From Motilibacter rhizosphaerae (GTDB taxonomy: Bacteria; Actinomycetota; Actinomycetes; Motilibacterales; Motilibacteraceae): a stretch of 50,852 bases of DNA. The notes beneath the pieces were generated by a model. The model saw nothing but the letters and a program-made list of their open reading frames with translations. It ran no database searches and was not told the DNA's origin. The DNA is taken from the NCBI RefSeq assembly GCF_004216915.1, contig NZ_SGXD01000008.1:1-50852 (forward strand). The letters run 5' to 3'. The translations under genes and the position numbers were made by a program. This document shows, piece after piece, positions 3,922 to 26,063 of this stretch. Within the stretch, counting starts at the first letter, position 1, and each line of letters opens with the position of its first letter.

Positions 3922-5271
3922 GTGGTCAACGGTAGTGGTGTCTCGCGTGGTGACCGGAGCCGGAACGCGCGCCTGTCGCGGCTTCGTGAGCTGGTGTCGG
4001 CTGGTCGTGCGATCGTCGGGGTCGACTTGGCGGACAGCAAGCAGATGGTCGTGGTCACTGATCACGACTCAAGGGTGGTGGCGCGGCGCACGTTCCGCTG
4101 CCGGGCGTGGGATCTGGGGGCCGCGTTGGACTGGGCGGCGGCGCAGGCCGCGCGGCAGGGGTTCGTGGGGGTGACGGTGGCGTGCGAGCCGACCGGGCAC
4201 CGGTGGCGGGTGCTGGGACAGCTCGCCGCCGAGCGGGGAATGCCGTTCGTCTGCGTCCAGCCGCTGGTGTCGTCATGGGCGCGGCGCGGCGAGGACCTGA
4301 CCTTCGACAAGACCGACGACAAGGACGCGGTCATCATCGCCCGGCTGACCGCGCAGTTGCGCTGCTATGTCCCGGAGCCCGTGGAGGAGACCTGGGGCCG
4401 GCTGCGCCACCTCGGCGCCCGCCGCGAGCAGCTGGTCAGCGAGCTTGTCGGGCAGGTCCAGCAGATGCGTGACCTGCTCGAGTGCGTGTGGCCCGCGGTC
4501 CTGGCCAGCGCGGCGCAGCCGTTCAAGTCCCGCACGTGGGCGGCCGCTTTGACGGTGGTGCTGGACCGCGATGGCGGGGACTTCGCCCGCACCCGTCGGC
4601 TCGGGCGCGCCCGGTTCGAGGCGCAGGTGCGCAAGGAGGTGGTCCGTTGGGGAGCGCAGAAGCCGTGCCTGCGGATCGCGCGGAAGGTGTTCGACGCGCT
4701 GGCGGATCCGGCCGGGGTGCTCGCTCACCGGCGCGGCGCGCTGGAGCGGGTGGCTCTCGTGCTTGAGGACTGGCACTTGACAGCGGGGCGGTGCGCGCAG
4801 ACCGAGACCCGGATGGTCGCGGTGCTCGACGAGCTCGAGTTGACCGAGCTGGTCACCTCCATCCCTGGGCTCTCGCCCGTTGGTGCGGCCGCGATCCTCG
4901 CCGAGACGGGGGACCTACATCGCTTCACCTCGGCGCGGGCGGTGGTCAAGCACGCGGGCCTGGCGCCGCGGGAGAAGGCCTCGGGTGGGTTCGTCGGGCG
5001 GACGAAGCTGACCGGGCAGGGCCGGCCCGGGCTGCGCCTCGCCGCATGGCGGGCGGCCTGGGGAGTGCTGCAGCACAGCCCTGTCCATGCGGCCCGCTAC
5101 CAGCACCTCACCGGCAGGGCGGAGAACCGGCTGACCCCCACCCAAGCGCAGGCGGCGGTCGCGGCCGCGCTGCTCCGCCAACTCCACGCGGTCGTCACTA
5201 CCGGCCGCCGGTGGGATCCCGACATCGCCGCCCACGGCGTCGCGCGGCCCGCTCTCGCGCCCGCCGCCTAA
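3922..5271 (+). CDS. IS110-family transposase (DEDD recombinase), complete
   Basis: 449 residues, full length for the family. The N-terminal RuvC-like domain carries D35 (GVDLAD), E89 (ACEPTGHRW) and the Asp cluster near residue 132-135 (DKTDDKDAV). The C-terminal Tnp_20 domain (about residues 310-400) has SIPGLSPVGAAAILAETGD and KHAGLAPREKASGG, the latter carrying the candidate catalytic serine. IS110 enzymes recombine donor and target through a bispecific bridge RNA. GTG 3922 has a GGAGGAGG site four to ten bases upstream, inside a hairpin; an in-frame ATG at 3877 lies inside that hairpin and is less likely. The element lies between the membrane protein gene and the histidine kinase, with about 230 bp of non-coding DNA downstream. 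Confidence 0.95.
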   Translation: MVNGSGVSRGDRSRNARLSRLRELVSAGRAIVGVDLADSKQMVVVTDHDSRVVARRTFRCRAWDLGAALDWAAAQAARQGFVGVTVACEPTGHRWRVLGQLAAERGMPFVCVQPLVSSWARRGEDLTFDKTDDKDAVIIARLTAQLRCYVPEPVEETWGRLRHLGARREQLVSELVGQVQQMRDLLECVWPAVLASAAQPFKSRTWAAALTVVLDRDGGDFARTRRLGRARFEAQVRKEVVRWGAQKPCLRIARKVFDALADPAGVLAHRRGALERVALVLEDWHLTAGRCAQTETRMVAVLDELELTELVTSIPGLSPVGAAAILAETGDLHRFTSARAVVKHAGLAPREKASGGFVGRTKLTGQGRPGLRLAAWRAAWGVLQHSPVHAARYQHLTGRAENRLTPTQAQAAVAAALLRQLHAVVTTGRRWDPDIAAHGVARPALAPAA

Positions 5272-8648: not shown

Positions 8649-8678
8649 CTCAGGCAGGCACAGCACGCAACCGATGTT
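8649..8678 (+). promoter_or_regulatory. FliA/WhiG-type promoter of surface protein gene 1
   Basis: CTCAGG (8649-8654), 15 nt, ACCGATGTT (8670-8678). This fits the actinobacterial flagellar sigma consensus as I recall it (CTCA-N15-17-GCCGA). The block GCAACCGATGTTGCGG is identical upstream of the paralogue at 18778. Transcription would start about 55 nt before GTG 8741. The rest of 8473-8740 holds no gene. Confidence 0.6.
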
Positions 8679-8740
8679 GCGGGCGAACAGGCCGGAGTCG
8701 TATGCCCGGCCGCCAGCTGCACACTCCGGGGGAGTTCCGC

Positions 8741-11700
8741 GTGGTCCTGAAGTCTCGTCGTGCCTCTCGTGCCGCGATCCGCCGCTCCCTGCGGCGCCCG
8801 CTCCCGCTGGTCGTGGCCTTCGCGTCAGCGGTCTCGGTCGTCGGAGGTCTCGCCTCACCGGCGTCGGCGTACATCAACTCGACCGTGCAGCGGGTCAACC
8901 TGGCGAACAACTCCTGGCCCGCTCAAGGAGTCTTCGACTCGGCGGGGAACTTCTACACCGTTAACGAGGACGGCACGATCTCCAGGATCAGCGCGGGTGG
9001 CATCCTCACTCAGGCCTGGGTCTCCCTGCCGAGCGGCTTCGACGGGCAGGGCATCACGATCGACGGTTCCGGGAACCTCTACGTCCCGGACTGGAACCAC
9101 AACAAGCTCGTGAAGGTCTCGGCAGCCGGCGCCGTGAACCCGAACTGGGGGACCGTGAGCTCGAACTACGACGCGCAGAACGCGCTCGTCGACGCGGCTG
9201 GCAACGTGTACGTCACCAACCAGTTCGCGGGCACCATCTCCAAGATCACCGCGGCGGGCGTGAGCACCCCGGCCTGGGCAACACTCGCCTCAGGCGCCCG
9301 ACCGTACGGCCTCGCGCAAGACTCCGCCGGCAACCTGTACACCGCCAACTTCGGCAACAGCACAATCAGCAAGATCACGCCAGCAGGTGTCATCACCCCG
9401 GTATGGGCCACCTTGGCAGCGAACTCCCAGCCCAAGGAGATGGCCTTCGACTCCCACGGCAACCTGTTCGTCGCCAACTTCGCCACCAACGCGGGTATCG
9501 CCAAGGTCACTCCTGCTGGTGCCGTCACGAACTCCTGGGCGCCCGGCGACGGAGGACTCTCGGTCGTCGTGGACGGGCAGGACAACGTCTACGAGACGGA
9601 ATACACCCAGGACAACGTCACCAAGACCACGCCCGCGGGCGTGCAGTCCATCTTCGCGCAACTCCCGGCAGGAACCCGCCCTGCGGATGCGAAGTTCGAC
9701 TCGAGCGGCCGGCTGTTCGTCGTCGGCGACGAGAGCTTCACCGTCTCGATCGTGGCCCCCGCGGCGGCTCCCTCGACTCCGGCGCTGAATTCGGCCACAG
9801 CGGGGGACCAGCAGGCGACCCTTGACATCACCCCCTCGACCGGTAACGGGACGCCCGTCACCGGGTACGAGTACTCGACCAACGGCGGCACCAGCTGGGC
9901 GACGCTGTCGACGAGCTCGGGCAGCAACGGCCACTTGACCGCGACCGTCACCGGGCTGACCAACGGCACGAGCTACAGCTTCACGGTGCGCGCACTGTCC
10001 GCTGCCGGGCCGAGCTCCGCGTCCGGGGCGCAGACCGCCACCCCGTACGGCGCCGCCGGGCAGGTGACCATCTCCACGGCCACGGGCGGCGACACGACCG
10101 CGACCCTGACCTTCGCGCCGGCCGCGCCGAACGGCACTCCCGTCACCGGCTACGAGTACTCCGTGGACTCGGGCACCACATGGGCGACTCTGCCCACAAC
10201 GACCTCGAACGGCACGGTGACCGGCACGGTCACCGGTCTGACGAACGGGACCTCCTACAGCGTCCAGGTCCGGTCCCAGTCGGCGGGCGGCGCGGGCGCG
10301 GCGTCGTCGGCGGTGTCGGTGACCCCGCAGACCGTGCCGTCCGCCCCCTCCGGCATGGCGTGGACGCAGGCGGACGGCTCGGTGGGGGTGAGCTTCCCCG
10401 CACCGGGGGATAACGGCTCCGCGATCAGCGGCTACGAGGACTCGACCGACGGTGGCGGCTCCTGGCACTTGCTCACCACCACGACGAGTGGGTCGACGGT
10501 GTCGGGCACGATCGCGTCGCTGGCCAACGGCTCCGCTTACAGCCTGGAGGTCCGGGCGGTCAACGGTGTCGGTGCCGGCGGGGCGTCGAGCGCGCTGACG
10601 GTCCTGCCGCGCTCCGTCGCGTCGCACGCGATGGGCACGAACGCCGCGCCGTACTCGGGCGGCTTTGACGCGGCCGGCAACTTCTATGTCACCAACGAGG
10701 ACAACGGCCACCGGTCGATCACGAAGATCGCCCTGGACGGCAGTGTCACCCCGGGCTGGGCCACCTTCAGCAACATGGGGGTGGAAAACCTCGCGGTGGC
10801 CCCCGATGGCACGATCTACGCGGCCAACAGCGGGGCGCGGGCGATCTCGAAGATCGACCCTGATGGCACGGTGCACGACCTGTGGGTGCCGGTGCCCTCG
10901 AACTCCAACCCGCAGGGCATCGTGATCGGCCCGGACGGCAACGTCTACGTGGCTCTCTACAGCCTCAACGAGGTCGCTCAGATCACTCCCGGCGGCACCC
11001 TGAACGCCTCCTGGGCCGTGCTCGGCTCCGGCAAGTACCCGCTCGGGCTGGCGTTCGACCAGTCCGGCAACCTCTACGTCGCCGACAACGGCGACGGCAC
11101 CATCGCCAAGATCGCTCCCGGCGGCGCCGTCAACGCCTCATGGGGGCGGCTGAGCGGAAGCTCCGACCCGCAGTACCTCGCCATCGACTCGGCCGGCAAC
11201 GTCTACGCCACCAACTGGTCGACCAACGACGTGTCAAAGGTGACCCCGGCCGGTGTGGTGACGCAGAGCTGGGGCCACCTCAGCCGCCCCGTCGGCATCG
11301 CCGTCGACTCGCAGGACAACGTCTACGCCACCAGCTACGGCGACGGCAGCGTCCTGCGGATCAACCCGGCCGGCGTCGAGACTGCGCAGTGGCTGCACCA
11401 GGCGGCCAACAGCGGAACGACCGGTGTCGCGGTCAGCCCGACCGACGACGTCTACGTCAGCAATGACGGCGCGGGCACCGTCGTCGTCGCCCCCGCGGAT
11501 CCTTCCGCCCCCGGCGCGCCTGTCGTCACCACGACCCACGCCTACGACGGCCGCGCCACCGTGACGTTCCGCGCCCCTACCAGCTCCGGGCACGGCACCG
11601 TCACCGGCTACGAGTACTCCCTCGACGGCACCACCTGGCACACCGCGACCACCACCGGCGCCAGCCCCTACACCCTCGAGCTGACCGGCCTGACCAACGG

Positions 11701-13459
11701 CACGACCTACCAGGTCCAGATCCGCGCCACCAGCCGCCTCGGCACCGGTCGCGCCGCCACCGCGTCGGTCACCCCCTACCGGGCGGCGACCCCGAGCGCC
11801 GGCACCGCCGTCGCGGGGACCTCCTCGGTGACCGCGAGCTGGACCGCGCCGGCACCGTCGAGCAGCATCACCGGCTACACGGTCACGGCGCACCCGGGGT
11901 CCGCGACCTGCGAGACGCACGCCGCGTCCGACACGTCGTGCGTGTTCGGCGCTGAGTCTGGGGTGTCGACGACGTTCACGGTCGTCGCGCACGACTCCAA
12001 CGGCTCGGACTCCGTCGCGTCCGGCCCGTCGAACGCGGTAACGCCGACCGCGCCGGTCGTCCCGGCGGCGGCGCCCGCGAACGTGCCCACGACGCTGACG
12101 ACGGACCGGGGGCAGATCGCCCTCGCGGTCCCGTCGCAGCAGATCACCGTCATCGGCACCGGGTTCGCGCCGTACTCGACGGCGAAGGTGGTCGTCTACT
12201 CCACGCCGATCGACCTCGGCACCGTCACCACCGACGCCAACGGCAAGTTCTCCGTCCCGGTCACCGTCCCCGCCTCCCTGGAGGCCGGGCACCACACGTT
12301 CCTCGCCACCGGCGTCGACCCGCAGGGCGCCGCGCGGGCGATGGAGCTCCCCGTCACCGTCCCGCCGACCACCGCGGGGTCGACCGGCGCGAACACCGGC
12401 ACCCAGCAGACCGTCCTCCCCGTCCCGGCCGGCGGGGCGATCACCCTGCTCGGCGCGGGCGGCTCCCCGGCCACCACGGTCACCGTCGCGGAGGGCACCT
12501 ACGCGCTCGACGCCTCGACCGGCACGATCACCTTCGTCCCGGTTGCCGGGTTCGTCGGCACCGCACACCCGGTCACCTACCGGCTCACCGACGCCCTCGC
12601 CTCCGTCGTCACCGGCACCTACACCGCCGTCGTCACCGGCACCGCCAGCACCGGATCCGGTGCCGGCAGCGCGGGAAGCAGCGGCCCGACGGGCACCGGG
12701 CCCACAGGCACGGGCACTGGCACGGGCAGTGGCACTGGCTCGACCGGGACTGGCTCGACGGGCACCGGTGTGAAGCCCACGCCGGGCGGGGCGAAGGCCG
12801 CCGCCCACGTGTCGGTGGCGGCGCTCGCCGTCGCCACCGGCCCGACCGCGCACGCGACGGTTCCGGTGCACTGCACCCTCACCACCGCCACCGTCGGGAC
12901 CTGCACCGTCACCCTCACCGCGACGGTGTCCGGGCGTCACGAGGTCATCGGCACCGGCACCGTGAAGGCCCGCGCCGGCAAGCATGTCGTAACCGTCCAG
13001 GTCCGGCTCAACGCCCTGGGCCGCGCGCTCGCCAACACGGCCGGCGGGATCACGGCCACCGCGACCGCGACGGTCACCCCCCGCGGCAGCCACACCACCG
13101 TCACCGGCGCCGGGACCACCAGGGTCGCGCTCCAGCATGTCACCGTCGCCTCGGTCTACTTCGCCACCGACTCCAGCACGCTCACCGGCCCGCAGCTCCG
13201 CGTCCTCGCGGGCCTGCGCCGCCACCTGGCGGGCGCGCGCAGTGTCACCGTGGTCGGGCACACCGACGACCGAGGCACCACCGCCTACGGACTCACCCTC
13301 GGCCGGGCACGCGCGGCCCACGTCGCCACCGCCCTCACCGCCGGGCTGCACCTCCACACCATCGTGATCACCAAGGGCGAAGCCGACCCCAAGGCCAGCA
13401 ACGCCACCCCCGCCGGCAAGGCCCTCAACCGCCGCGCCGACATCACCATCACCTACTAG
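8741..13459 (+). CDS. Giant secreted surface protein 1: NHL propellers, Fn3, CshA repeat, OmpA-like peptidoglycan-binding domain
   Basis: 1572 residues. Signal peptide 1-43 (basic N-region, hydrophobic core, ASPASA cleavage). Domains in order: NHL-type beta-propeller (about 45-340, repeating FDSAGNFY and SKITPAG units), three Fn3 domains (340-622), a second propeller (625-915), two Fn3 domains (920-1105), an Ig-like domain (1110-1205), a CshA-type fibril repeat (1215-1300), a Gly/Ser/Thr linker, a further beta-rich domain, and a C-terminal OmpA domain (1463-1572: VYFATDSS, VVGHTDDRG, LGRARA, NRRADI). The OmpA domain should bind diaminopimelate peptidoglycan and anchor the protein in the wall. 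GTG 8741 has GGGGGAG six bases upstream; ATG 8702 is the alternative. Adhesion or cell-envelope sensing is likely; the ligand is unknown. Confidence 0.88.
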   Translation: MVLKSRRASRAAIRRSLRRPLPLVVAFASAVSVVGGLASPASAYINSTVQRVNLANNSWPAQGVFDSAGNFYTVNEDGTISRISAGGILTQAWVSLPSGFDGQGITIDGSGNLYVPDWNHNKLVKVSAAGAVNPNWGTVSSNYDAQNALVDAAGNVYVTNQFAGTISKITAAGVSTPAWATLASGARPYGLAQDSAGNLYTANFGNSTISKITPAGVITPVWATLAANSQPKEMAFDSHGNLFVANFATNAGIAKVTPAGAVTNSWAPGDGGLSVVVDGQDNVYETEYTQDNVTKTTPAGVQSIFAQLPAGTRPADAKFDSSGRLFVVGDESFTVSIVAPAAAPSTPALNSATAGDQQATLDITPSTGNGTPVTGYEYSTNGGTSWATLSTSSGSNGHLTATVTGLTNGTSYSFTVRALSAAGPSSASGAQTATPYGAAGQVTISTATGGDTTATLTFAPAAPNGTPVTGYEYSVDSGTTWATLPTTTSNGTVTGTVTGLTNGTSYSVQVRSQSAGGAGAASSAVSVTPQTVPSAPSGMAWTQADGSVGVSFPAPGDNGSAISGYEDSTDGGGSWHLLTTTTSGSTVSGTIASLANGSAYSLEVRAVNGVGAGGASSALTVLPRSVASHAMGTNAAPYSGGFDAAGNFYVTNEDNGHRSITKIALDGSVTPGWATFSNMGVENLAVAPDGTIYAANSGARAISKIDPDGTVHDLWVPVPSNSNPQGIVIGPDGNVYVALYSLNEVAQITPGGTLNASWAVLGSGKYPLGLAFDQSGNLYVADNGDGTIAKIAPGGAVNASWGRLSGSSDPQYLAIDSAGNVYATNWSTNDVSKVTPAGVVTQSWGHLSRPVGIAVDSQDNVYATSYGDGSVLRINPAGVETAQWLHQAANSGTTGVAVSPTDDVYVSNDGAGTVVVAPADPSAPGAPVVTTTHAYDGRATVTFRAPTSSGHGTVTGYEYSLDGTTWHTATTTGASPYTLELTGLTNGTTYQVQIRATSRLGTGRAATASVTPYRAATPSAGTAVAGTSSVTASWTAPAPSSSITGYTVTAHPGSATCETHAASDTSCVFGAESGVSTTFTVVAHDSNGSDSVASGPSNAVTPTAPVVPAAAPANVPTTLTTDRGQIALAVPSQQITVIGTGFAPYSTAKVVVYSTPIDLGTVTTDANGKFSVPVTVPASLEAGHHTFLATGVDPQGAARAMELPVTVPPTTAGSTGANTGTQQTVLPVPAGGAITLLGAGGSPATTVTVAEGTYALDASTGTITFVPVAGFVGTAHPVTYRLTDALASVVTGTYTAVVTGTASTGSGAGSAGSSGPTGTGPTGTGTGTGSGTGSTGTGSTGTGVKPTPGGAKAAAHVSVAALAVATGPTAHATVPVHCTLTTATVGTCTVTLTATVSGRHEVIGTGTVKARAGKHVVTVQVRLNALGRALANTAGGITATATATVTPRGSHTTVTGAGTTRVALQHVTVASVYFATDSSTLTGPQLRVLAGLRRHLAGARSVTVVGHTDDRGTTAYGLTLGRARAAHVATALTAGLHLHTIVITKGEADPKASNATPAGKALNRRADITITY

Positions 13460-13472
13460 CACCAGCACCGCG

Positions 13473-13500
13473 AAGGGCCGCCCCCACCGGGGCGGCCCTT
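13473..13500 (+). terminator. Hairpin terminator after surface protein gene 1
   Basis: AAGGGCCGCCCC - CACC - GGGGCGGCCCTT is a perfect 12-bp stem 14 bases after the TAG stop, followed by CCTTG. The same hairpin, slightly longer, follows the paralogue at 21728. Confidence 0.85.
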
Positions 13501-13638
13501 CCTTGTCGCCTAGCCCTACACCTGCCGACCGTTCCGTCTTCGGTACGAGCGGCAGTCCGAGGCGCACCGACTGCGTTGGCGGGTGGTGCGCAAGCGCCGG
13601 GTGACCGTGAGGTGATCAGCTGGGCTATGACCGTGAGG

Positions 13639-14013
13639 TCACGACGGGGCTTGGGCGACGGCGTCGTCGACGCTGGCGTAGAGGGGGAAGACTCGCTCCA
13701 GGGCGGTGAGCTTGAGCAGCCGCTTGGTCATCGTGGTGCCGGGAACGATGGCGAGGGTCCCGTGGAGGGCGGCGAGCCGCTTGTACGTGCCGACGAGCAC
13801 GCCGAGCGCGGTGGAGTCGAGGAAGGTGACGCCGGTGAGGTCGAGCAGGACGTCGGTGTGGCCTTCGGCGGGGAGGTCGATCAGCCGCTGGCGCAGTGCC
13901 GGCGCGGTGGCGGCGTCGATCTCCCCAGCGACCGTGAGGACCAGCCACGCGCCGCGCGGGGTCGCCATCATCGACAGGGCGCCCTCACTGTCCGAGCGTC
14001 CGCTGGTCTCCAC
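13639..14013 (-). CDS. STAS-domain anti-sigma factor antagonist
   Basis: 124 residues. A single STAS domain with the strand VLTVAGEIDAATAP, the conserved DVLLDLTGVTFLDSTALGVLV block and a C-terminal helix. The Ser in FLDSTALG is the residue phosphorylated by anti-sigma kinases in the SpoIIAA/RsbV family, so this copy can be regulated by phosphorylation. GTG 14013 is preferred because GAGGACG precedes it; the open frame extends upstream to 14112. It faces surface protein gene 1 tail to tail and lies just downstream of the frameshifted small gene. A partner kinase is not in this window. Confidence 0.85.
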   Translation of the reverse strand: METSGRSDSEGALSMMATPRGAWLVLTVAGEIDAATAPALRQRLIDLPAEGHTDVLLDLTGVTFLDSTALGVLVGTYKRLAALHGTLAIVPGTTMTKRLLKLTALERVFPLYASVDDAVAQAPS

Positions 14014-14118
14014 GCTGCGTCCTCGCCCTCGTCGCGGGGCGGGGGATGCTCCACTCGGCGCCGCGATCTTAGGGGTGGAGTTGTCGCCCGACAACCGCGC
14101 GGAGTGCGTCAACGACGG

Positions 14119-14419
14119 TCACGGGCAGGGTCGGTGACGGTGAGCCGGCTCCGCGGTGACCTTGACGAGGCGCGGGAGGTGCAGGGCGTGGCGGGGTGCG
14201 GAGGCGCGCACGGCGGCGACAGCTTCGTCCCGTGCCTTTTGCCGGGGACTCGGCATGGTCGACGTTCAGCGAGATGCAGACGACACGGTCAGGGTGGAGG
14301 TGGGCGGAGGGCCAGGCGGTGTCCAGGTCGTCAGCGAGCGCGTCGAGCGCTGCGACGGTCTCCTCGATGTCGCAGCTCTCGGGCAGCCGCCACTGGACTC
14401 GGGCCCGCCAGGTGAGCAT
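14119..14419 (-). pseudogene. Small hypothetical protein gene with a +1-base frameshift
   Basis: The ATG at 14419 has a strong AAGGAGA site five bases upstream and begins MLTWRARVQWRLPE. The reading frame is convincing up to DHAESPAK, then turns Arg/Pro-rich. Removing one G in AAAAGGCACGG (about 14243) restores a natural continuation, ARDEAVAAVRASAPRH, ending at a TGA at 14119-14121 after about 99 residues. As written, translation would run on to 14069. It may be a disabled gene, a sequencing error or +1 recoding. The N-terminal half looks like a small alpha/beta domain; its function is unknown. Confidence 0.6.
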
Positions 14420-14602
14420 GAGCGTCTCCTTCTCCGTCGTGGTCGCTGTCCGGTGGGACCGCAGAGGGGGTGCTCGACGGCGCCTGCGTTCGGCGGAGAT
14501 GGGGAGGGCGAGGACGTTGAGGGCGCCGGCGCCCGTTCCCCTGGTTGTGCGCAGCACGCGCTGCTCCGGGCCCGGCGGGGAAGTCCTGCTGGGCCGGCGG
14601 CC

Positions 14603-15160
14603 CTAGAGCTCGCGGTCCTCGCGGTGCTCGCGGAGGCCGGTGCCGGGTCTGGTGGTGGGGAGGTGGTCGAGGATCCAGGGGTCGAGGACGGCGCCGAGCA
14701 GGTTGGCGAGCGCGACAGCGGTGCCGCGTCCGAGCCGCCCGAAGGCTTCGCTCATGAGGGGCCGGACGATCTCGACGGCGTGGGCGAGGACGGGCGAGGC
14801 GGCGGGGGTCAGGTCGAGCCACGTTCGCCTGCGGTCGTGCTCGTCGCGTTGCCGACGGAGGAGCCCGGCCTCCTCGAGGCGGTGGGCGAGCCCGGTGACG
14901 GCGGCGGGCTGCACTCCGAGCAGGGCGGCGAGCGTGCCGGACGGCAAGGTTCCGTGCACGGCGAGGACGTAGAGCGCGTGGACGTCGAGCGGGAGCAGCC
15001 CGAGCTCGTCCGCGGCCTGGTCGACGCCGGCCCGCACACTGTTCGCGGCCAACAGGGCGAGGTAGCCGAGCTCGAGGCCGTTGTCCGCGACGATGGGCTC
15101 GGCGGCCGGAGTGTCTCGGGGCAGGGCGGCCAGCATGCTAGTTCTCTCGTCAGCAACCAT
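14603..15160 (-). CDS. MarR-family transcriptional regulator
   Basis: About 185 residues. A winged helix-turn-helix occupies roughly residues 50-125: a helix like [15 protein letters not shown], the recognition region [25 protein letters not shown], and the wing [17 protein letters not shown], which are hallmark MarR features. Long N- and C-terminal helices would form the dimer interface. ATG 15160 is taken as the start; ATG 15136 with a GAGAG site is an alternative. It is divergent from the chemoreceptor gene, with about 135 bp between them, so it could regulate that gene. No ligand can be predicted. Confidence 0.85.
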
Positions 15161-15243
15161 CAACGGGTGAAGCGTCGACTCGCCCGCAACAGGAGCATCG
15201 GCCTCGTGATGCTTCAGCGGTGAAGCTCTCCGGGGCACCCTGG

Positions 15244-15272
15244 CTCAGGTTGCCTCCTCGGGTGCCGACCTT
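15244..15272 (+). promoter_or_regulatory. FliA/WhiG-type promoter of the chemoreceptor gene
   Basis: CTCAGG (15244-15249), 14 nt, GCCGACCTT (15264-15272), about 25 bases before ATG 15298. It has the same -35 hexamer and a matching -10 as the promoters of the two surface protein genes, as expected for a chemotaxis gene under a flagellar sigma factor. Confidence 0.65.
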
Positions 15273-15297
15273 GGGGTTACCCGCCCCAGGAGGATGC

Positions 15298-16842
15298 ATG
15301 TTCGGCAGACGAGGCGCCCCGGCTACCGCGTCGACGGCGCAGCCGCGCGACGTGGAGGCGTTGGAGGCAGTGGTCGATGCGCTAGCCGGCGACATCAGCG
15401 ACCTGCAGGAGGCGCGGGCGCGGATCATCACCGCGCTCGTCGATGCGCTGGGGCTGGCCTACGGGGCGCTGTGGACGAGGAACTCCGACGGGCATTTCAG
15501 CCTCGTGGCGGAGACCGGCGAGCTCGTCGCGCCGATGGGCGCCGCAGCGGACGGGGCACGGCTGATCCCGGCGGACGCGGGGATGCTCGGGGCCGCGGTG
15601 TCGTCCCGCCGTGCGGTGAGCGTGACAGCGGAGCCGGAGCCGGGCACGCACTGCGCCCGGTGGCGGCACGCGCGTGGCCTGGGCATGGTCGAAGCAGCCT
15701 GCGTACCGGTCATCTCTGACGGCGCTGTCATCGCGGTCATGGAGTTCTTCGGCGGGAGTGCCTTGCCGGAGTTCGCCAGCGAGAAGTGGGCGTCGATCGT
15801 CCGCATCGGGCTCATGGCCCGCGACCACGCGATCGACCGCATGGCCCTGCGCGACATGCTGCACGACCGCGCCGCGCTGACCGAGGTCGTGAGCAGCGTG
15901 GGCGACGCGGGCACCGAGCACGAGGCCATCCGCATGGCGCTCGACAGCGTGCGCAAGGCGTTCGGCTGGGCGTACGGCTCGTACTGGGCGCTCGACGACC
16001 GGGAGCAGGTGCTCCACTTCTCGCTGGAGTCCGGCTCGGCGGGGGAGGAGTTCCGGCGGGTTACGCTGTCGGCGTCGTTCGCTGAGGGTGTCGGACTGTC
16101 CGGGCGTGCCTGGCAGGCACGTGACCTGGTGTTCGTGCGTGACCTGGCCGAGATGACCGACTGCGTGCGCGCCCCAGCCGCGCAGCGCGCCGGGGTGAAG
16201 TCGGGGATCTGTTTCCCTATCCTCGACGGCCGAGACGTCATCGGCACGATGGACTTCTTCGTCACCGAGACCATCGAGTTGTCCGAGTCGCGGGCCGCAG
16301 CGCTGCGCAACGTGCAGCAGCTGCTCTCGCAGCGCCTCGCGGTCCTGCGCCGTACGGAGCGTGACGCCACCAAGGCCGTGCAGCTCCTCGACACCGTCAC
16401 TCAGCTGCGTGAGGCCTCGATCGAGGCCGGGCATGTCGCGCAGCTTGCCGCGGACGGTTCGAGCACCATGACCACCCATGTCGCAGCGCTGGCCGAGGCC
16501 TCGAGCGCGATCGGCGAGATCATCAAGATCATCACGGGTATCGCGGAGCAGACCAATCTGCTCGCCCTCAACGCCACCATCGAGGCTGCCCGGGCCGGTG
16601 AGGTGGGCCGCGGGTTCGCCGTCGTGGCCAACGAGGTCAAGGACCTGGCCCGCGAGACCAGCGAAGCCACCTCACGCGTCGCGACCCAGATCGCCGCGAT
16701 CCAGCAGACCAGCGAGACCGTCGCCCAAGGAATCCACGGCACCGGCCAGACCATCGGGCAGCTGGAAGGCGTCCAGCTCCGGATCAACGGGATCCTCGAG
16801 GAGCAGGCACGCATGGCCGCCGAATTCGAGCTCAGGAAGTAA
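15298..16842 (+). CDS. Soluble chemoreceptor, GAF-GAF-MCP
   Basis: 514 residues with no membrane segment, so a cytoplasmic receptor. Two tandem GAF domains (about 25-185 and 190-365) are followed by a short methyl-accepting signalling domain (about 375-514). It has the highly conserved hairpin tip [20 protein letters not shown] and [16 protein letters not shown], which contacts CheA and CheW. The helical bundle is short, so few methylation sites are expected. ATG 15298 has AGGAGG four bases upstream. A flagellar-type promoter lies just before it and an 84-residue gene follows after five bases. No other che gene is in the window. Confidence 0.93.
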
Positions 16843-16847
16843 GCCGC

Positions 16848-17102
16848 GTGGACGGTCCGCAGCCGGTCGACGCCCTTCACCTCGACGCCATCCGCACGGC
16901 CGTCGCGATGCTGGGGCGGGCCAACGAGAGTGACTGGCACGCCGTGCACGAGCTGTGGGCCGCTACCGGTGACGGCGAGCAGCTGGAGCTGGTGATGACC
17001 CTCGCGGCGGCGGCGGTCGCGCTGCTCGGGGCAGCGCACCCGGAAGGGCACACGCAGGAGCTCATCGGGCAAGTTGCGCTGCAACTAGCCTCGCGCTGGT
17101 GA
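16848..17102 (+). CDS. Small hypothetical protein downstream of the chemoreceptor
   Basis: 84 residues, starting at a GTG five bases after the chemoreceptor stop, so probably translated from the same mRNA. It is mostly helical: DALHLDAIRTAVAMLGRAN, a WHAVHELWAATGDG turn, then an Ala/Leu-rich helix LVMTLAAAAVALLGAAH. The hydrophobic helix is short and flanked by charged residues, so a soluble helical bundle is more likely than a membrane protein. I do not recognise the family. Its position suggests an accessory to the receptor. Confidence 0.6.
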   Translation: MDGPQPVDALHLDAIRTAVAMLGRANESDWHAVHELWAATGDGEQLELVMTLAAAAVALLGAAHPEGHTQELIGQVALQLASRW

Positions 17103-17154
17103 GCGGCACGCGGGCGGGGGAGGGCGAAGGAGCAGTGACCTCGGAGGATGTGCA

Positions 17155-17611
17155 TGCGCGCCCGGCACCACCATGACCTGACCGGGGGCTTCTGCCCGGA
17201 GGGTTGCGGGCCTTCCAGTTCGGCGCGTCGATGGTCGTCGTCTGCGCGGCGCTCGTCGCCCTCACCAGCGTCGTGCTGAATGAGGCGCTCGCGGACAGAA
17301 CACTCGCATTGGCCACCGAGTGCATCGCGGTGCTCCTCGCGGCCGTGAGCCTGCTACTGCCGTGGGAGCGTCTGCCTCCGCCGGCGCTGCTGCTCTACCC
17401 GGTGCTGGTCGTCGGCCCGCTCGCGGTGGCCGAGCAGGGGTCCGCCGCGTACAACGGGCTGTTCACCATCGCCGCGACCTACACCGGCGTCACCCAGCGA
17501 CGCTCCATCGCCCTGGCAGGTGTTCCCGCGCTCGTACCGTTCGCCGTGCTCGCCAACGACGGCGTGACCCGCGAGCTGCTCGCCCGGCTGCCGGTCTCGC
17601 TGGCCGTCTAG
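17155..17611 (+). pseudogene. Membrane domain of a diguanylate cyclase, separated from its GGDEF domain by an in-frame TAG
   Basis: From a TTG at 17204 the frame encodes 135 residues with about five hydrophobic helices (GASMVVVCAALVALTSVVL, ECIAVLLAAVSLLL, LLLYPVLVVGPLAV and others). It ends at TAG 17609-17611 in the middle of the last helix, LPVSLAV-stop-TMLAFLLADL, and the same frame continues into a GGDEF domain. A TGG to TAG change would explain this. The better start, ATG 17155 preceded by GGAGG, is in another frame (MRARHHHDLTGG); adding one G near 17201 would join it to the membrane domain. Two lesions make loss of function likely. Confidence 0.7.
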
Positions 17612-17614
17612 ACG

Positions 17615-18127
17615 ATGCTCGCCTTCCTCCTCGCCGACCTCGTCGACCGCCACCGCCGCCTCCGCCAGACCGAGCAGGACGCCGCGGAGACCGACCCGCT
17701 CACCGGCCTCGCCAACCGGCGACGACTCGACGGCTGCCTCGCGGTCCTCCAACCCGGCGATACGCTCGTCATGCTCGACCTCGACCACTTCAAGCAGCTC
17801 AACGACACCCACGGGCACGAGGTCGGGGACGCGGTGCTCGCCGACTTCGGGGCAGTACTGCAAGGGGCCCTGCGCAACGGCGACACCGCCGTCCGCTACG
17901 GCGGAGAGGAGTTCCTCCTCCTGCTTCCCGCAACCAGCCTCGACGGCGCCCGACTGGTCACCGACCGGCTCCGCTCCGCGTGGTCGGCGGCGCGCCCCGA
18001 CTCCACGTTCCCCACCGGGATCGCCCTGCATCAGGGCTCAGACCGCCCACAGCACACCCTCCGCCGAGCCGACCAGGCGCTCTACGAGGCCAAGCGGCGC
18101 GGCCGCAACCAGACGGTGACAGCCTGA
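17615..18127 (+). CDS. GGDEF domain (diguanylate cyclase), possibly re-initiated after an in-frame TAG
   Basis: 170 residues from ATG 17615, four bases beyond the TAG that ends the membrane part. The opening LAFLLADLVDRHRRLRQ is the end of a membrane helix plus a linker coiled coil; then DPLTGLANRR, MLDLDHFKQLND, and the active loop RYGGEEF. The allosteric I-site RNGD lies five residues before GGEEF. All residues needed to make c-di-GMP from GTP are present. Whether it is expressed depends on re-initiation or readthrough; without the membrane sensor it would be uncontrolled or inactive. Confidence 0.75.
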   Translation: MLAFLLADLVDRHRRLRQTEQDAAETDPLTGLANRRRLDGCLAVLQPGDTLVMLDLDHFKQLNDTHGHEVGDAVLADFGAVLQGALRNGDTAVRYGGEEFLLLLPATSLDGARLVTDRLRSAWSAARPDSTFPTGIALHQGSDRPQHTLRRADQALYEAKRRGRNQTVTA

Positions 18128-18284
18128 CGGCTGACGTCTAGACGTCGCAGGCGCTGCCCGGCGTGCGGCGGGTGGCCGAATGAGGAGTCGCCGGCGCGTC
18201 GCTCGCACGCGACCCCTCCTCGCCAGGTGCACGCACTGGTAGCGAAGCCCGAAAGGCGCGTCGGCAGCAGCGGCGAGCGGTCCG

Positions 18285-18480
18285 CGGTCAGGCGGCAAGC
18301 CGATCGTCGTGCCGCAGGTGCTCCGCGAGCTCGGCGAGGCGTACCGCCCCGCCCGCGGCCACCAGGATGAGATCACGCTGCTGCTCGCTCAGCGGCCCGC
18401 CAACTCGTCGAGAAGCGCTTCGAGGTAGCCCTGCACGGCCGTCAGCGGCGTCCTCAGCTCGTGCGGCCCGGCTGCAGCCG
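18285..18480 (-). pseudogene. Remnant of a histidine kinase dimerisation domain
   Basis: On the minus strand, PHELRTPLTAVQGYLEALLD is a classical H-box. It runs into a stop (LAGR-stop), but shifting frame gives PLSEQQRDLILVAAGGAVRL and LAELAEHL, the normal continuation of a HisKA helix pair. Neither the sensor part nor the ATPase domain can be found nearby. It is therefore a decayed fragment with at least one frameshift. The rest of the 650-bp gap 18128-18777 holds only the promoter at 18688. Confidence 0.6.
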
Positions 18481-18687
18481 GCAGCAGACGGCGTCGTCCA
18501 CCTCGCCCACCACTACCCCCGGGTGCTCGTCGTTTCCTCGTCCTTCGGATGACAGCCATCACGGAGCGCAGCGCCGATCCGGCGAGGACGAAGTCCTGGT
18601 CAGCGGCGCGTGCCAGCAGCGTCCGCCCTGAGACGCCGCTGCTGGCAAGCGCGCGACCCGCCAAGAGGGCGACAGAGGATCGGTGGC

Positions 18688-18716
18688 CTCAGGGCAGGTC
18701 GGAGGCAACCGATGTT
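18688..18716 (+). promoter_or_regulatory. FliA/WhiG-type promoter of surface protein gene 2
   Basis: CTCAGG (18688-18693), 14 nt, ACCGATGTT (18708-18716). The 16-base block GCAACCGATGTTGCGG (18705-18720) is identical to that upstream of the paralogue. The transcript leader would be about 55 nt. Confidence 0.62.
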
Positions 18717-18777
18717 GCGGTGAGCCGGCCGGCGTGACCGGGCGCGGGGGACCGCTTCATCGGAAGGACACGGGACG

Positions 18778-21711
18778 TTGAAGGACGAGACGAGCAGGCG
18801 TGGGGCGCGGCGCTCGCCGCGGGCAGGGCGCAAGGTAGCCGGAGTGGTCAGCGCGGCGCTGCCGCTGGCCGGCCTCCTCGCGGTGCAGACTCCGGCCTGG
18901 GCCGCGACGACCACCCTCTACTCGACGGGGTCGGGGTCGTGCATCTACCAGGGGGCGTTCGACTCCCAAGGCAACTACTACGGCGCCGACGAGTGCAAGA
19001 ACCGCATCGTCAAGCTCGACCCCTACGGCAACCTCGACGTCAACTGGGCTGTGCTGCCCGCAGGGTCTGTGACTGAGGGCATCACGGTGGCTCCCGACGG
19101 CACCGTGTACGCGCCCGACCAGGCGCACCAGTACGTCGTCAAGGTGAGCCCGCTCGGTGTCGTCAACGCCACCTGGGTCCAGCTGCCGGCGAATGCCTAC
19201 GCGCAGGAGCTCGTCCTCGACCACGCCGGCAACCTCTACGTCGCCGCGATGAGCGCCAACGAGATCGACAAGATCGACACAGCGACCGGTCAGCTCACCA
19301 CGTTTGCGACGCCGACCGGTCCGTACGGCCTGGCGTTCGACTCCCAGCAGCACCTGTGGAGCGCCAACAACGGCGGCGACTCGATCACCGAGTACGACCT
19401 TCAGGGCAACCTGCTCAACACCTACCCCGTGCCCCTCGGCTCGAGCCTCGAGGCCCTTGTCGTCGCCCCCAACGACGACGTCTACGCCGCGGCATGGCGT
19501 GGCGGGTTCATCTCCAAGATCGACGCGAACGGCACGTTCACGCAGGCGTGGGCGACCGTGAACCGTCCCGCCGACCTCGACATGGACTCGCAGGGCAACA
19601 TCTACGCCAGCGAGTCCACCCGCGCTGGCGGCCTCACCAAGATCGACCCCAGCGGCGCCGTGACCGCGCAGTGGGCGACACCGTTCCCGGCCTCCTCGTG
19701 GCCGATCGGCGTCAACGGCTCGCCGACCGACGACGTCTACGTCGCCCTCGACGGCGGCGGCGTCATCATGGCGCCCGCGGACCCCACAGCGCCCGGCGCT
19801 CCCACCTCGCTCGTCGTCAGCCGCGCCGACCGCGGGGCGCACCTCTCCTTCCAGTCCCCGGTGCGTACCGGGCACTCGCCCATCACCGGGTACGAAGTCT
19901 CGACCGACGGCGGCACCACCTGGACCGCCCTGACCACGTCCGCCCTGACGGGCGCGCTCACCGCCGACCTGACCGGGCTGACGAACGGCACCACCTACAC
20001 CGTCCGCGTCCGCGCGGTGAACGCGATCGGCACGGGCCCTGCCACCGCGTCCGCCTCCGTGGTCCCCGCTCTCGGCCGCGCAGCGACGCCGACCGCTCCG
20101 GTCGCGGTCGCTGGGACCTCCTCGGTGACGGCGTCCTGGGCCGCGGTGCCTGGCGTGACCGGCTACACCGTGACCGCGCACCCGGGTAACGGGACGTGCG
20201 CGACGCACTCCGCGTCGGACACCTCGTGCGTGTTCGGCGCCGAGGCCGGGGTGCCGACGACCTTCACCGTCGTCGCGCACGACCCGAGCAGCTCGGACTC
20301 GGCCCCGTCGGCCGCGTCGAACGCGGTCGTGCCCGCCGCTCCTGTGGCCCCGGCCACGGTTCCGGCCAACGTCCCGGTCACGCTGACCACGGACAAGGGG
20401 CAGATCGCGCTCGCGGTCCCCAGCCAGCAGATCACGGTCATCGGCACCGGGTTCGCGCCGTACTCCACGGCCAAGGTCATGGTCTACTCCAGCCCGATCG
20501 ACCTCGGCACGGTCACCACCGACGCCAACGGCAACTTCTCCGTCCCGGTCACCGTTCCGGCGTCTCTGGAGGCGGGGCACCACACGTTCCTCGCGACCGG
20601 TGTCGACCCGCAGGGCGGGCCCCGGGCGATGGAGCTGCCGGTCACCGTCCCGCCGACCACCGCGGGGTCCACCGGGGCGAACACCGGCACGCAGCAGACC
20701 GTCCTCCCCGTCCCGACCGGCGGGGCGATCACCCTGCTCGACGGCAACGGCGCGCCCGTCACGACCATGACTGTGGCGGAGGGCACCTACGCCCTCGATG
20801 CTTCCACCGGAACCATCACCTTCGTCCCCGTCGCCGGGTTCGTCGGCACCGCCCACCCGGTGACCTACCGGTTCACCGACGCCCTGGGCTCGATCGTGAC
20901 CGGCACCTACACCGCCGTCGTCACCGGCACCGCGAGCACCGGGTCCGGTGCCGCCAGCGCCGGAAGCAGTGGCACGACGGGCACCGGCACGACGGGTACG
21001 GGCAGCACCGGCTCGGGTGCGACGGCCAAGCCGGCGACCGGGGGGACGGCTGCCGTGCACGTGTCGGTGGCGGCGCTCGCGGTCGCGACCGGCGCGACCG
21101 CGCGTGCGACGGTTCCGGTGCGCTGTGCCCTGAACGCTTCGACGGTGGGGGCGTGCACGGTCACCCTGACCGCGACCGTGTCCGGCCGGCATGAGGTCAT
21201 CGGCAGCGGCACCGTCAAGGCCCGGACCGGCGCCCGCACCGTCATCACGCACGTCCGGCTCAACGCCCTCGGCCGGGCACTCGCGAACACCGTCGGCGGC
21301 GTGACCGCGACCGCGACCGCGTCAATCACCCCCCGCGACTCCCGGGCAGCGGTGACCGGCAGCCGCGCCACCCGGGTAGTGCTGGAGCACGTGACGCTCG
21401 CCCCGGTGTACTTCTCGTCGGACTCGAGCAAGCTCACCCCTGTCCAGGCGCGGATGCTGGCCGGTCTGCGCCGACACCTCGTCGGCGTCACCGGCGTGAC
21501 GGTGGTCGGGCACACCGACGACCGCGGCACCGCCGCCTACGGCATGTGGCTCGGGCAGCGCCGCGCCGCGCGCGTCGCCGCCGCCCTCACCGCCGGGCTG
21601 CACCTGCACACCGTCGTCGAGACCAAGGGCGAGGCCGATCCCAAGGCCAGCAACGCCACCCCCGCCGGCAAGGCCCTCAACCGCCGCGCCGACATCACCG
21701 TCACCTACTAG
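18778..21711 (+). CDS. Secreted surface protein 2: NHL propeller, Fn3, CshA repeat, OmpA-like domain
   Basis: 977 residues, paralogue of the protein at 8741-13459. Signal peptide 1-42 ending QTPAWA. One NHL-type propeller (about 43-335), two Fn3 domains (338-525), an Ig-like domain (530-625), a CshA repeat (630-720), a Gly/Ser/Thr linker, a beta-rich domain and a C-terminal OmpA domain (870-977, VVGHTDDRG and NRRADI). It lacks the first propeller and three Fn3 domains of its larger relative, while the last 500 residues are nearly identical. TTG 18778 is the only in-frame start, with GGAAGGA nine bases upstream. It should be wall-bound through peptidoglycan and displays a binding propeller outside. 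Confidence 0.88.
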   Translation: MKDETSRRGARRSPRAGRKVAGVVSAALPLAGLLAVQTPAWAATTTLYSTGSGSCIYQGAFDSQGNYYGADECKNRIVKLDPYGNLDVNWAVLPAGSVTEGITVAPDGTVYAPDQAHQYVVKVSPLGVVNATWVQLPANAYAQELVLDHAGNLYVAAMSANEIDKIDTATGQLTTFATPTGPYGLAFDSQQHLWSANNGGDSITEYDLQGNLLNTYPVPLGSSLEALVVAPNDDVYAAAWRGGFISKIDANGTFTQAWATVNRPADLDMDSQGNIYASESTRAGGLTKIDPSGAVTAQWATPFPASSWPIGVNGSPTDDVYVALDGGGVIMAPADPTAPGAPTSLVVSRADRGAHLSFQSPVRTGHSPITGYEVSTDGGTTWTALTTSALTGALTADLTGLTNGTTYTVRVRAVNAIGTGPATASASVVPALGRAATPTAPVAVAGTSSVTASWAAVPGVTGYTVTAHPGNGTCATHSASDTSCVFGAEAGVPTTFTVVAHDPSSSDSAPSAASNAVVPAAPVAPATVPANVPVTLTTDKGQIALAVPSQQITVIGTGFAPYSTAKVMVYSSPIDLGTVTTDANGNFSVPVTVPASLEAGHHTFLATGVDPQGGPRAMELPVTVPPTTAGSTGANTGTQQTVLPVPTGGAITLLDGNGAPVTTMTVAEGTYALDASTGTITFVPVAGFVGTAHPVTYRFTDALGSIVTGTYTAVVTGTASTGSGAASAGSSGTTGTGTTGTGSTGSGATAKPATGGTAAVHVSVAALAVATGATARATVPVRCALNASTVGACTVTLTATVSGRHEVIGSGTVKARTGARTVITHVRLNALGRALANTVGGVTATATASITPRDSRAAVTGSRATRVVLEHVTLAPVYFSSDSSKLTPVQARMLAGLRRHLVGVTGVTVVGHTDDRGTAAYGMWLGQRRAARVAAALTAGLHLHTVVETKGEADPKASNATPAGKALNRRADITVTY

Positions 21712-21727
21712 CACCACCAGCACCGCG

Positions 21728-21758
21728 AAGGGCCGCCCCCACCCCGGGGGCGGCCCTT
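21728..21758 (+). terminator. Hairpin terminator after surface protein gene 2
   Basis: AAGGGCCGCCCCC - ACCCC - GGGGGCGGCCCTT, a perfect 13-bp stem shortly after the stop and followed by CT. It is homologous to the terminator at 13473, so the duplication that made the paralogues included it. Confidence 0.85.
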
Positions 21759-21955
21759 CTCGCCGCCACCGTCCTCCGTCCTGAGGCCGTACGGAAGCAC
21801 GTAGAGGGGGAGCCCGACGTGCGCGAACAGCCGCAAATCGGCATGAGAGTGCGTTGCCTGAGGGCGTGACATGGCCGTCGCGGTTGGGCCTGGTACGTGT
21901 TGGAGGGGGTGCGAGTCTGCTGGTCCGCGACCGTCCAAGCGTGGGGCCGGGTGCG

Positions 21956-24383: not shown

Positions 24384-26063
24384 GTGGAGCTGGAGGACTG
24401 GTCCGCGCTCGCCGAGGGCCTGGGCGACAACCCCGGGGAGGGGGTCGTGCTGCTGCGGGCCGTACCCGACGGCAGCGGGGGTACTGACTTCCTGCACGAG
24501 TACGCGAACGGTGCGACGGAGCGGGTGATGCGGCAGGGCCCCCTCGCGGGGGTGCCGCTCTCCGCCGTCCTGCCCACCGGCAGTGGGCCGCTCCTCGCCG
24601 CGCTGCGCCAGCTGCAGCTGACGGGGGGCCGCTGGGAGGGTGAGCTGCCCTGGCCCAGCAGCGCCGATCCCTCGGGCTCCCCCGGGACGTGGGCGGTCGT
24701 GTGCGTGGCCGTGGGCAGGGAGCGCTACGCCTGCCAGTACCGCGACGTCTCCCCGCAGCGCGAGGCTCTGCGGGCGCTCGCCCACGACGCGCTGCACGAC
24801 GCCCTCACCGGGCTCGCCAACCGCCGCCTGTTCGAGGAGCGGGTGGGTCGTGCTCGTGCGCGGCTCGCCAGGCACCGCGCGCCCCTCGCCCTCGTGCTCT
24901 GCGACCTCGACGGCTTCAAGGAGGTCAACGACCGCCTGGGGCACGCCGCCGGCGACGCTCTGCTCCAGGAGGTCTCCCGCCGCATGGAGGCGGCGCTGCG
25001 CCCCGAGGACACGGTCGCCCGCTTCGGCGGCGACGAGTTCGTCCTGCTGTTGGAGGACCTCCCCGACACGGTCGTCGCGCCTGTGCGGGCAGCGGAGCGG
25101 GTGCGAGCGGCCGTCGGCGGGGAGTACGTCCTGGAGGGGCGCGCCGTCCACCTGACGCTGTCCCTCGGCGTCGTCACGACGAGCTCCCCGCTGCCCGCCG
25201 AGGAGCTCCTCCGCATGGCCGACACCGCGCTGTACGAGGCGAAGCGGAGGGGCCGTGACAGGACGGAGGTCTTCAGCCCCCGTCTGCGCGAGCACGCCTC
25301 GCTGCGGGCAGACGTCGCCGACGAGCTGCGCCGCGCCCTGGCCCACGGCGAGCTGGTCGTGCACTACCAGCCGAAGACGGAGCTGGCGACAGGGCGCATC
25401 GCCGGTGTCGAGGCCCTCGTGCGCTGGGAGCACCCGCAGCGCGGCCTGCTCCTGCCTGAGGACTTCCTGGAGGCCGCGCTCGACAGTGGCCTGATCCTCC
25501 CGCTGGGCGCGTTCGTGCTCGACCGGGCGTGCCGGGACGTGCAGGGCTGGCGCGGGGGCGAGGGTGTCCGGCTCCAGGTCAACACCTCGGCCGAGGAGGT
25601 GCTCCACCCGGGCCTCGTCGGCGCCGTCAGCAGTGCCCTGTCCGGAAGCGGGCTCGACCCCGGCCGGCTCGAGCTGGAGGTGACCGAGACCAGAGCCTTC
25701 GCCGACGTCGACGCCGCAGCCCACCAGCTGGACCAGGTAGCCGCCCTCGGCGTCACCTTCGCGCTCGACGACTTCGGGACGGGGGCGTCCTCGCTCGCGT
25801 GGCTGCAGCGCTTCCCGGTGAGCTGCGTCAAGATCGACCAGTCCTTCGTGCGCCACCTCGCCACGAGCAGCACGGACGCCGCGATCGCGGCGGCCGTGGT
25901 CACCCTCGGCCACGCGCTCGGGCTGCAGGTCGTGGCCGAGGGCATCGAGGACGCCCGGCAGCTCGAGCTGGTCACCGCGCTGGACGTGGACCTCGGTCAG
26001 GGGTTCTACCTGGGACGACCGGCCAGCAGCGCCGAAACCGAGGCGTTGCTGCTCGCGCGCTGA
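24384..26063 (+). CDS. GGDEF-EAL c-di-GMP turnover protein with N-terminal PAS-like region
   Basis: 559 residues, no membrane segment. A PAS-like region (1-125) is followed by GGDEF (about 130-290: DALTGLANRR, LCDLDGFKEVND, active loop ARFGGDEF, I-site RPED) and EAL (about 305-555: GVEALVRW, NTSAEEV, ELEVTET, ALDDFGTG, VKIDQSFV, VAEGIED, QGFYLG). All metal-binding and catalytic positions of both domains appear intact, so it may both make and hydrolyse c-di-GMP, with the PAS region setting the balance. GTG 24384 has no clear ribosome-binding site and lies six bases after the STAS-like gene in the same frame; coupled translation is likely. Confidence 0.92.
   Translation: MELEDWSALAEGLGDNPGEGVVLLRAVPDGSGGTDFLHEYANGATERVMRQGPLAGVPLSAVLPTGSGPLLAALRQLQLTGGRWEGELPWPSSADPSGSPGTWAVVCVAVGRERYACQYRDVSPQREALRALAHDALHDALTGLANRRLFEERVGRARARLARHRAPLALVLCDLDGFKEVNDRLGHAAGDALLQEVSRRMEAALRPEDTVARFGGDEFVLLLEDLPDTVVAPVRAAERVRAAVGGEYVLEGRAVHLTLSLGVVTTSSPLPAEELLRMADTALYEAKRRGRDRTEVFSPRLREHASLRADVADELRRALAHGELVVHYQPKTELATGRIAGVEALVRWEHPQRGLLLPEDFLEAALDSGLILPLGAFVLDRACRDVQGWRGGEGVRLQVNTSAEEVLHPGLVGAVSSALSGSGLDPGRLELEVTETRAFADVDAAAHQLDQVAALGVTFALDDFGTGASSLAWLQRFPVSCVKIDQSFVRHLATSSTDAAIAAAVVTLGHALGLQVVAEGIEDARQLELVTALDVDLGQGFYLGRPASSAETEALLLAR

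Follow-up and report, generated by a model that had tools for sequence, protein, structure and literature searches.

The window, by which we mean the whole stretch of DNA analysed, spans positions 1-50,852 of contig C8 in a genome of 4.3 Mb. It encodes two related surface proteins and a chemoreceptor, each preceded by a candidate flagellar-type promoter, and carries one further site of this form on the opposite strand:

8649..8678, plus strand: putative flagellar-sigma-type promoter 1, CTCAGG-N15-ACCGATGTT, before the 1572-aa surface protein; matrix score 17.6
8667..8680, no strand assigned: inverted repeat GCAAC-CGAT-GTTGC across the -10 of promoter 1
8741..13459, plus strand: surface protein, 1572 aa, signal-like N-terminus, two Vgb-type propellers, fn3 repeats, a CshA repeat and a C-terminal OmpA domain
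15244..15272, plus strand: putative flagellar-sigma-type promoter 2, CTCAGG-N14-GCCGACCTT, before the chemoreceptor; matrix score 17.55
15298..16842, plus strand: GAF-GAF-MCP chemoreceptor, 514 aa, by domain matches
18688..18716, plus strand: putative flagellar-sigma-type promoter 3, CTCAGG-N14-ACCGATGTT, before the 977-aa surface protein; matrix score 18.8
18705..18718, no strand assigned: inverted repeat GCAAC-CGAT-GTTGC across the -10 of promoter 3
18778..21711, plus strand: surface protein, 977 aa, signal-like N-terminus, one Vgb-type propeller, fn3, a CshA repeat and an OmpA domain
21838..21862, minus strand: fourth site, CTCAGG-N14-GCCGA(T), directed towards the 3' end of the 977-aa gene

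A preliminary description had placed CTCAGG sites before these three genes, and they lie exactly where it put them, with core matches at 8649-8674 (CTCAGG-N15-ACCGA), 15244-15268 (CTCAGG-N14-GCCGA) and 18688-18712 (CTCAGG-N14-ACCGA). Between the end of the extended -10 block and the gene start there are 62 bases at 8741, 25 at 15298 and 61 at 18778; the gene caller gives alternative in-frame starts at 8702 and 18844 for the surface proteins and at 15370 for the receptor. The FliA/WhiG-type promoter of motile actinobacteria has the form CTCA-N15-17-GCCGA, and the flagellar promoter consensus of Actinoplanes missouriensis reportedly has CTCA at -35. The spacings of 17, 16 and 16 bases fall within this range, and promoters 1 and 3 deviate at the first base of the -10 element, with A for G. 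The TAAA-N15-GCCGATAA consensus of enteric bacteria and Rubrobacter is matched by none of the three, which all have CTCA and a -10 of ACCGATGTT or GCCGACCTT. A scan of the three upstream regions for sigma-70-like promoters found none, a weak test at about 75% GC, and across the whole window no riboswitch or other RNA family reached its gathering score.

Both strands of the window hold four matches to the pattern, against a mean of 0.31 and a maximum of 2 in 100 shuffles. Ranked by a weight matrix that includes receptor sites from outside the window (see below), the fourth site comes first at 22.65, followed by the other three at 19.97, 19.61 and 18.23 and then by a next-best score of 15.08. 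The best scores of 15 shuffled windows ran from 13.8 to 19.4, so that one score of about 18-19 in 50 kb could be chance; chance would be very unlikely to yield four such scores with three located at gene starts.

The proteins were also as described: both surface proteins have propeller and OmpA matches, and 15298-16842 encodes a GAF-MCP receptor. Each surface protein begins with a hydrophobic, signal-like segment and ends in an OmpA domain (PF00691, 35.8 and 37.0 bits against a cut-off of 27.2). Domains of this type bind peptidoglycan, with TD and R residues that bind diaminopimelate, and the 977-aa protein retains the conserved TD and R residues in the alignment. The best solved match to its OmpA domain is YiaD (2k1s), followed by mycobacterial Rv0899 entries. 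Its propeller, modelled at a mean pLDDT of 89 from a three-sequence alignment, shares its fold with virginiamycin B lyase (Vgb; 2qc5, TM 0.84), a designed seven-bladed protein (7big, TM 0.82) and, more weakly, the sensor propeller of PknD (1rwl, TM 0.60); identity to the Vgb entries is 15-18%, and here the fold is one segment of a large repeat protein that also has an OmpA domain. The C-terminal halves of the two paralogues are 81% identical over 508 residues, and a nearly identical GC-rich hairpin follows both stop codons (13460-13510 and 21712-21760). The receptor has a single hydrophobic peak (19-residue hydropathy 1.77 at residue 130), which falls inside the first GAF match, and the protein was therefore taken to be cytoplasmic.

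The window also encodes GGDEF/EAL proteins at 17615-18127 and 24384-26063, the first of which, a GGDEF gene, comes after the receptor and may share its transcript, and an IS110-family transposase at 4078-5271, near the left end of the contig. Downstream of the fourth site the simple gene caller found no minus-strand gene within 6.7 kb. A strong hairpin lies at about 21725-21760, some 80-110 bases past the site, and a scan for a T-run terminator of a minus-strand transcript found none. The site, located past the 977-aa gene and antisense to it, could give rise to a small or antisense RNA.

Flagellar genes, sigma factors and the site form across the genome

All flagellin matches in this genome, five strong ones in tandem and a sixth that is weaker, fall within a flagellar cluster at C1:650-750 kb; the tandem genes (L064) occupy C1:716.8-721.9 kb, with a strict-form site before the first only. 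The cluster also contains a CsrA-like gene, recognised by eye, and at about 709.9 kb a FliA-like sigma factor whose FliA_WhiG score of 187.1 bits is just under the cut-off of 189.6. For this protein, searched with 252 residues from which the N-terminus is missing, the best structural matches are entries named 'RNA polymerase sigma factor' (6pfv, 6pfj) and the next best are FliA entries (6pmi, 9wsf, 9wsm, 1rp3). The highest FliA_WhiG score, 284 bits and above the cut-off, belongs to a WhiG-like sigma at C3:228646, so the genome does encode a factor of this family. The gene adjoins recombinase-like and rpsB-like genes (both named by eye), surroundings that we take to be those of Streptomyces whiG.

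To score sites we trained a weight matrix on nine sites from the flagellar cluster alone, picked by CTCA-N15/18-RCCGA. The 100-kb flagellar stretch has 12 pattern matches, of which three (3724, 17214 and 25230) were excluded as lying within genes at least 494 bases from the next start; three sites overlapping the end of the gene upstream and one located 274 bases from its gene were kept. A second matrix, to which seven receptor sites from outside the window were added, served for the window ranking above (18.2-22.7). The flagellar-cluster matrix gives 17.6 for the gene at 8741, 17.55 for the receptor and 18.8 for the gene at 18778, whereas none of 265 genes reaches 13 (maximum 12.5) in stretches taken at arbitrary intervals from this genome, 300 kb in all. 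The genome has 18 chemoreceptor matches. Of the 16 chemoreceptor units elsewhere in the genome, 10 have a site scoring at least 13, in one case located before the operon's first gene, and six do not; one further locus (L074) was dropped for want of a gene call.

The form CTCAGG-N14/15-RCCGA occurs 37 times in the genome, against 17 for the reversed pattern. For 24 of the 37 a gene start follows at a distance of 0-110 bases (for 23 when the 977-aa protein is given the start chosen by the caller), as it does for 21 of 33 when the window is excluded and for 3.9% of random positions. These starts come from a simple gene caller rather than an annotation, and six of them, only 9-10 bases past a site, are probably placed too far upstream. 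The wider pattern CTCARG-N14/15-GCCGA was poorly specific (51 matches against 34 for the control in the same genome), and we therefore relied on the CTCAGG form and the matrix. Within the cluster, sites precede flagellin (in the CTCAAG form) and FlgN-like, FliI-like and CheY-like genes; an FlhF-like gene and chemoreceptors have them in other parts of the genome. Flagellins and chemoreceptors excepted, these names were read by eye from the first residues, and the gene classes of the 37 matches were assigned by hand. A genome scan for enrichment at flagellar and chemotaxis genes, the check proposed with the preliminary description, has thus come out in its favour, with flagellin, FlgN-, FliI- and FlhF-like genes and 10 of 16 receptor units among the hits. 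Spacing, enrichment and the presence of sigma genes all fit the FliA/WhiG-type promoter that it proposed, and because sites are enriched before flagellar and chemoreceptor genes, membership in the regulon is supported in silico.

Sites of the same form also lie upstream of sensor kinases and secreted-looking proteins. The latter include a heparinase II/III-like protein (L150, C2:916500-921000) and an 818-aa protein with no Pfam match (L151, C2:448500-453500). Just downstream of further sites are two T2SSE-family ATPase genes, by reading PilT-like (L154, C3:392500-396500) and PilB-like (L155, C3:498000-504000), and GGDEF and GGDEF-EAL genes (L153 and L017). The ATPase sites suggest joint control of pili and flagella. 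Excerpts of published work describe WhiG-like flagellar sigma factors of A. missouriensis that direct flagellar and type IV pilus genes, and flagellar-type promoters before pilus and diguanylate cyclase/phosphodiesterase genes in Rubrobacter radiotolerans, where they are read by WhiG, a member of the same sigma family (PMC8325347). The ATPase, GGDEF and GGDEF-EAL sites found here agree with both. The R. radiotolerans consensus differs, as excerpted, in being TAAA / GCCGATAA with type IV pili as the main output, whereas here it is CTCA(G/A)G / GCCGA with flagella and wall-surface proteins.

These similarities bear on which sigma factor reads the promoters. If it were WhiG rather than FliA, as in Rubrobacter, the genes would belong to a surface programme gated by c-di-GMP rather than to flagellar assembly proper. 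The WhiG-like sigma on C3 outscores the cluster copy (284 against 187.1 bits), and the sites before the two ATPase genes and the GGDEF and GGDEF-EAL genes recall the R. radiotolerans WhiG regulon as excerpted (PMC8325347); the matrix that finds them was, however, derived from flagellar genes. We regard this assignment as unlikely, if well short of far-fetched. WhiG and flagellar sigma factors are reported, in the same excerpts, to share promoter specificity (PMC8325347), and for that reason sequence does not separate the two.

Conservation in relatives and the ACCGA sites

Homologues of the window receptor in related genomes share 59-64% identity with it. Twelve receptor loci were found, two of which (L208 and L210) are partial matches and were excluded. 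The seven homologues in four relatives score 20.3, 20.3, 18.9, 16.7, 15.3, 12.42 and 12.29, with sites about 34-73 bases before the estimated start. In two of the relatives, 1 of 134 and 1 of 138 background genes score at least 15, and 2 of 134 and 5 of 138 at least 13. Because this background also reaches 13, the homologue scores of 12.4 and 12.3 speak neither for nor against a site; the remaining five of seven, all at least 15, indicate that the site is conserved before receptor homologues. Among the three genes, it is the receptor for which membership in the regulon is best supported.

For the surface proteins, the comparison rests on 18 OmpA-domain matches: four are MotB by sequence, two have the gene or its upstream region interrupted by a contig end (C118 and C173), and 12 were scored, one of them under the Pfam cut-off. 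Six weak loci found as named relatives of the surface protein were left out. Sites scoring at least 13 precede all three non-MotB OmpA-domain proteins of this genome and three of nine in relatives, namely one of three in G002 (14.7), two of three in G003 (20.0 and 18.1), none of one in G001 and none of two in G004. The closest relatives of the window proteins have no site (G003:C266, 49% identity, 7.6; G002:C5, 47%, 6.9), and the only OmpA-domain relative in the same genus scores 5.3. Three site-bearing proteins, from contig C3 of this genome, G002 and G003, have Big_9, Listeria-Bacteroides repeat, CshA and OmpA domains in common and seem to form a single orthologous group. A Pfam scan of 11 of the 12 proteins shows propellers in the two window proteins only; the recurring link to the site is therefore with OmpA-domain surface proteins and not with propellers as such.

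The two surface-protein sites have the -10 form ACCGA, which accounts for 6 of the 37 genome matches against about 7.5 expected by chance and so is not enriched; three of the six are near a gene start, one of these within the preceding gene. This lack of enrichment, together with the missing sites in the closest relatives, would be expected if the two sites were accidental or vestigial, the surface proteins used an unrecognised promoter and the receptor alone belonged to the regulon. Yet the sites score 17.6 and 18.8 against a maximum of 12.5 among 265 background genes, the block has been retained although the rest of the two upstream regions has diverged, and sites precede the third OmpA-domain protein of this genome and three in relatives. 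We consider this reading improbable.

The retained block itself admits another explanation. Within the 150 bases upstream of the paralogues, GCAACCGATGTTGCGG is the sole common word of at least 8 bases, and the inverted repeat lies inside it; CTCAGG is also common to both regions, at a distance that differs by one base. In a plain alignment of the regions the CTCAGG blocks fall in different columns. The element could serve chiefly as the operator of a dimeric regulator (GCAAC-N4-GTTGC), its likeness to a flagellar promoter being secondary. An identical 14-base repeat occurs in both regions, the version with the CGAT centre is confined to these two regions among the five genomes searched, and ACCGA is not the usual -10 form in this genome. 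Against this, CTCAGG stands at promoter distance in both regions, a one-base change in spacing being tolerated by sigma promoters; the general repeat is in no clear excess in this genome (5 places, 3 for the control); and the third OmpA-domain protein and the receptor have GCCGA sites with no repeat. An operator as the main function seems to us a long shot, and the two functions can in any case coexist. We read the GCAACCGATGTTGCGG block as a probable sigma -10 element with a possible additional operator; common descent of the upstream regions also contributes to the similarity.

Taking scores, enrichment and receptor conservation together, the proposal that the two surface proteins and the receptor belong to the motility regulon is supported in silico. 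We put the probability that the three sites are FliA/WhiG-type promoters, and their genes part of a flagellar-sigma regulon, at roughly 0.83.

Proposed flagellar control of surface proteins

All five genomes examined from the order carry flagellin, and the contrast between flagellated and non-flagellated bacteria was therefore drawn at the level of the class, in 79 genomes, with the reversed pattern as control. The 16 genomes with flagellin over the cut-off hold 202 matches against 95 for the control, and the 63 others, among which G070 and G072 (flagellin matches below the cut-off) are counted, hold 426 against 393 (Mann-Whitney p = 0.0001; p = 0.003 without the four genomes of the same family). 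One flagellin-less family (f4; G007, G034, G051 and G067) shows an excess of CTCAGG-N14-GCCGA, 51 against 15, and without it the flagellin-negative group has 375 matches against 378. The excess in this family could reflect a WhiG regulon in bacteria that lack flagella. G020, also flagellin-negative, is in excess as well (20 against 4). Because single flagellin-negative genomes exceed the control, the excess of the motif holds for groups and not for single genomes.

Other motile actinobacteria offer points of comparison. In the abstracted account of sporangium formation in A. missouriensis, flagellar, pilus and receptor genes are among 136 that are strongly raised, with sigma dependence unstated there (PMC11960193). 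The transcript of its wall protein SspA is reported in excerpt to rise in fliA mutants (PMC13293333), the opposite of the direction proposed for the window surface proteins, and the excerpted description of its regulon names no OmpA-domain or propeller proteins, unlike the set found here. The motility island of Kineococcus radiotolerans, whose zoospores are motile, has FliA and CsrA and no FlgM (PMC2587704, excerpt), and CsrA-like (by eye) and FliA-like genes are also found in the cluster here; the same excerpt notes that regulation could not be fully discerned and gives no promoter form (PMC2587704).

We envision a scenario in which RNA polymerase with the cluster sigma on C1 or its WhiG-like paralogue on C3 would transcribe the surface-protein and receptor genes along with flagellar and chemoreceptor genes, pilus-motor-like genes and c-di-GMP genes. 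Once exported, the surface proteins would be held on peptidoglycan by the OmpA domain, and their propellers, fn3 and CshA repeats would reach outward and most likely attach to a surface or polymer as motile cells land. A part in adhesion or motility of swimming cells, as the preliminary description suggested, would follow from domain content, and an adhesive function is plausible at about even odds. More broadly, and with a little less confidence than an even bet would demand, the flagellar sigma of these actinobacteria may run a programme of dispersal and landing that comprises flagella, receptors, pilus motors, c-di-GMP enzymes and peptidoglycan-anchored OmpA-domain adhesins; the fourth promoter (21862, minus strand) may also give a short antisense or small RNA that targets the end of the propeller gene.

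The mechanism is one already known, and these findings extend a known type of regulon; its cargo of OmpA-domain surface proteins appears to be new. Among the titles and abstract openings listed in our search, whose coverage takes in little of the subscription literature, none described actinobacterial OmpA-domain or propeller surface proteins as controlled by a flagellar sigma. To our knowledge, the coupling of swimming with attachment has been little studied in motile members of this group. The matrix provides a ready list of further candidate regulon genes in the genome. Should the promoters work, these uncharacterised proteins would be assigned to a stage of expression and given a role open to testing, and one sigma factor would tie motor, sensing and wall-surface proteins together. 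The apparent control of the surface proteins and the chemoreceptor by flagellar-type promoters suggests that swimming cells also display attachment proteins.
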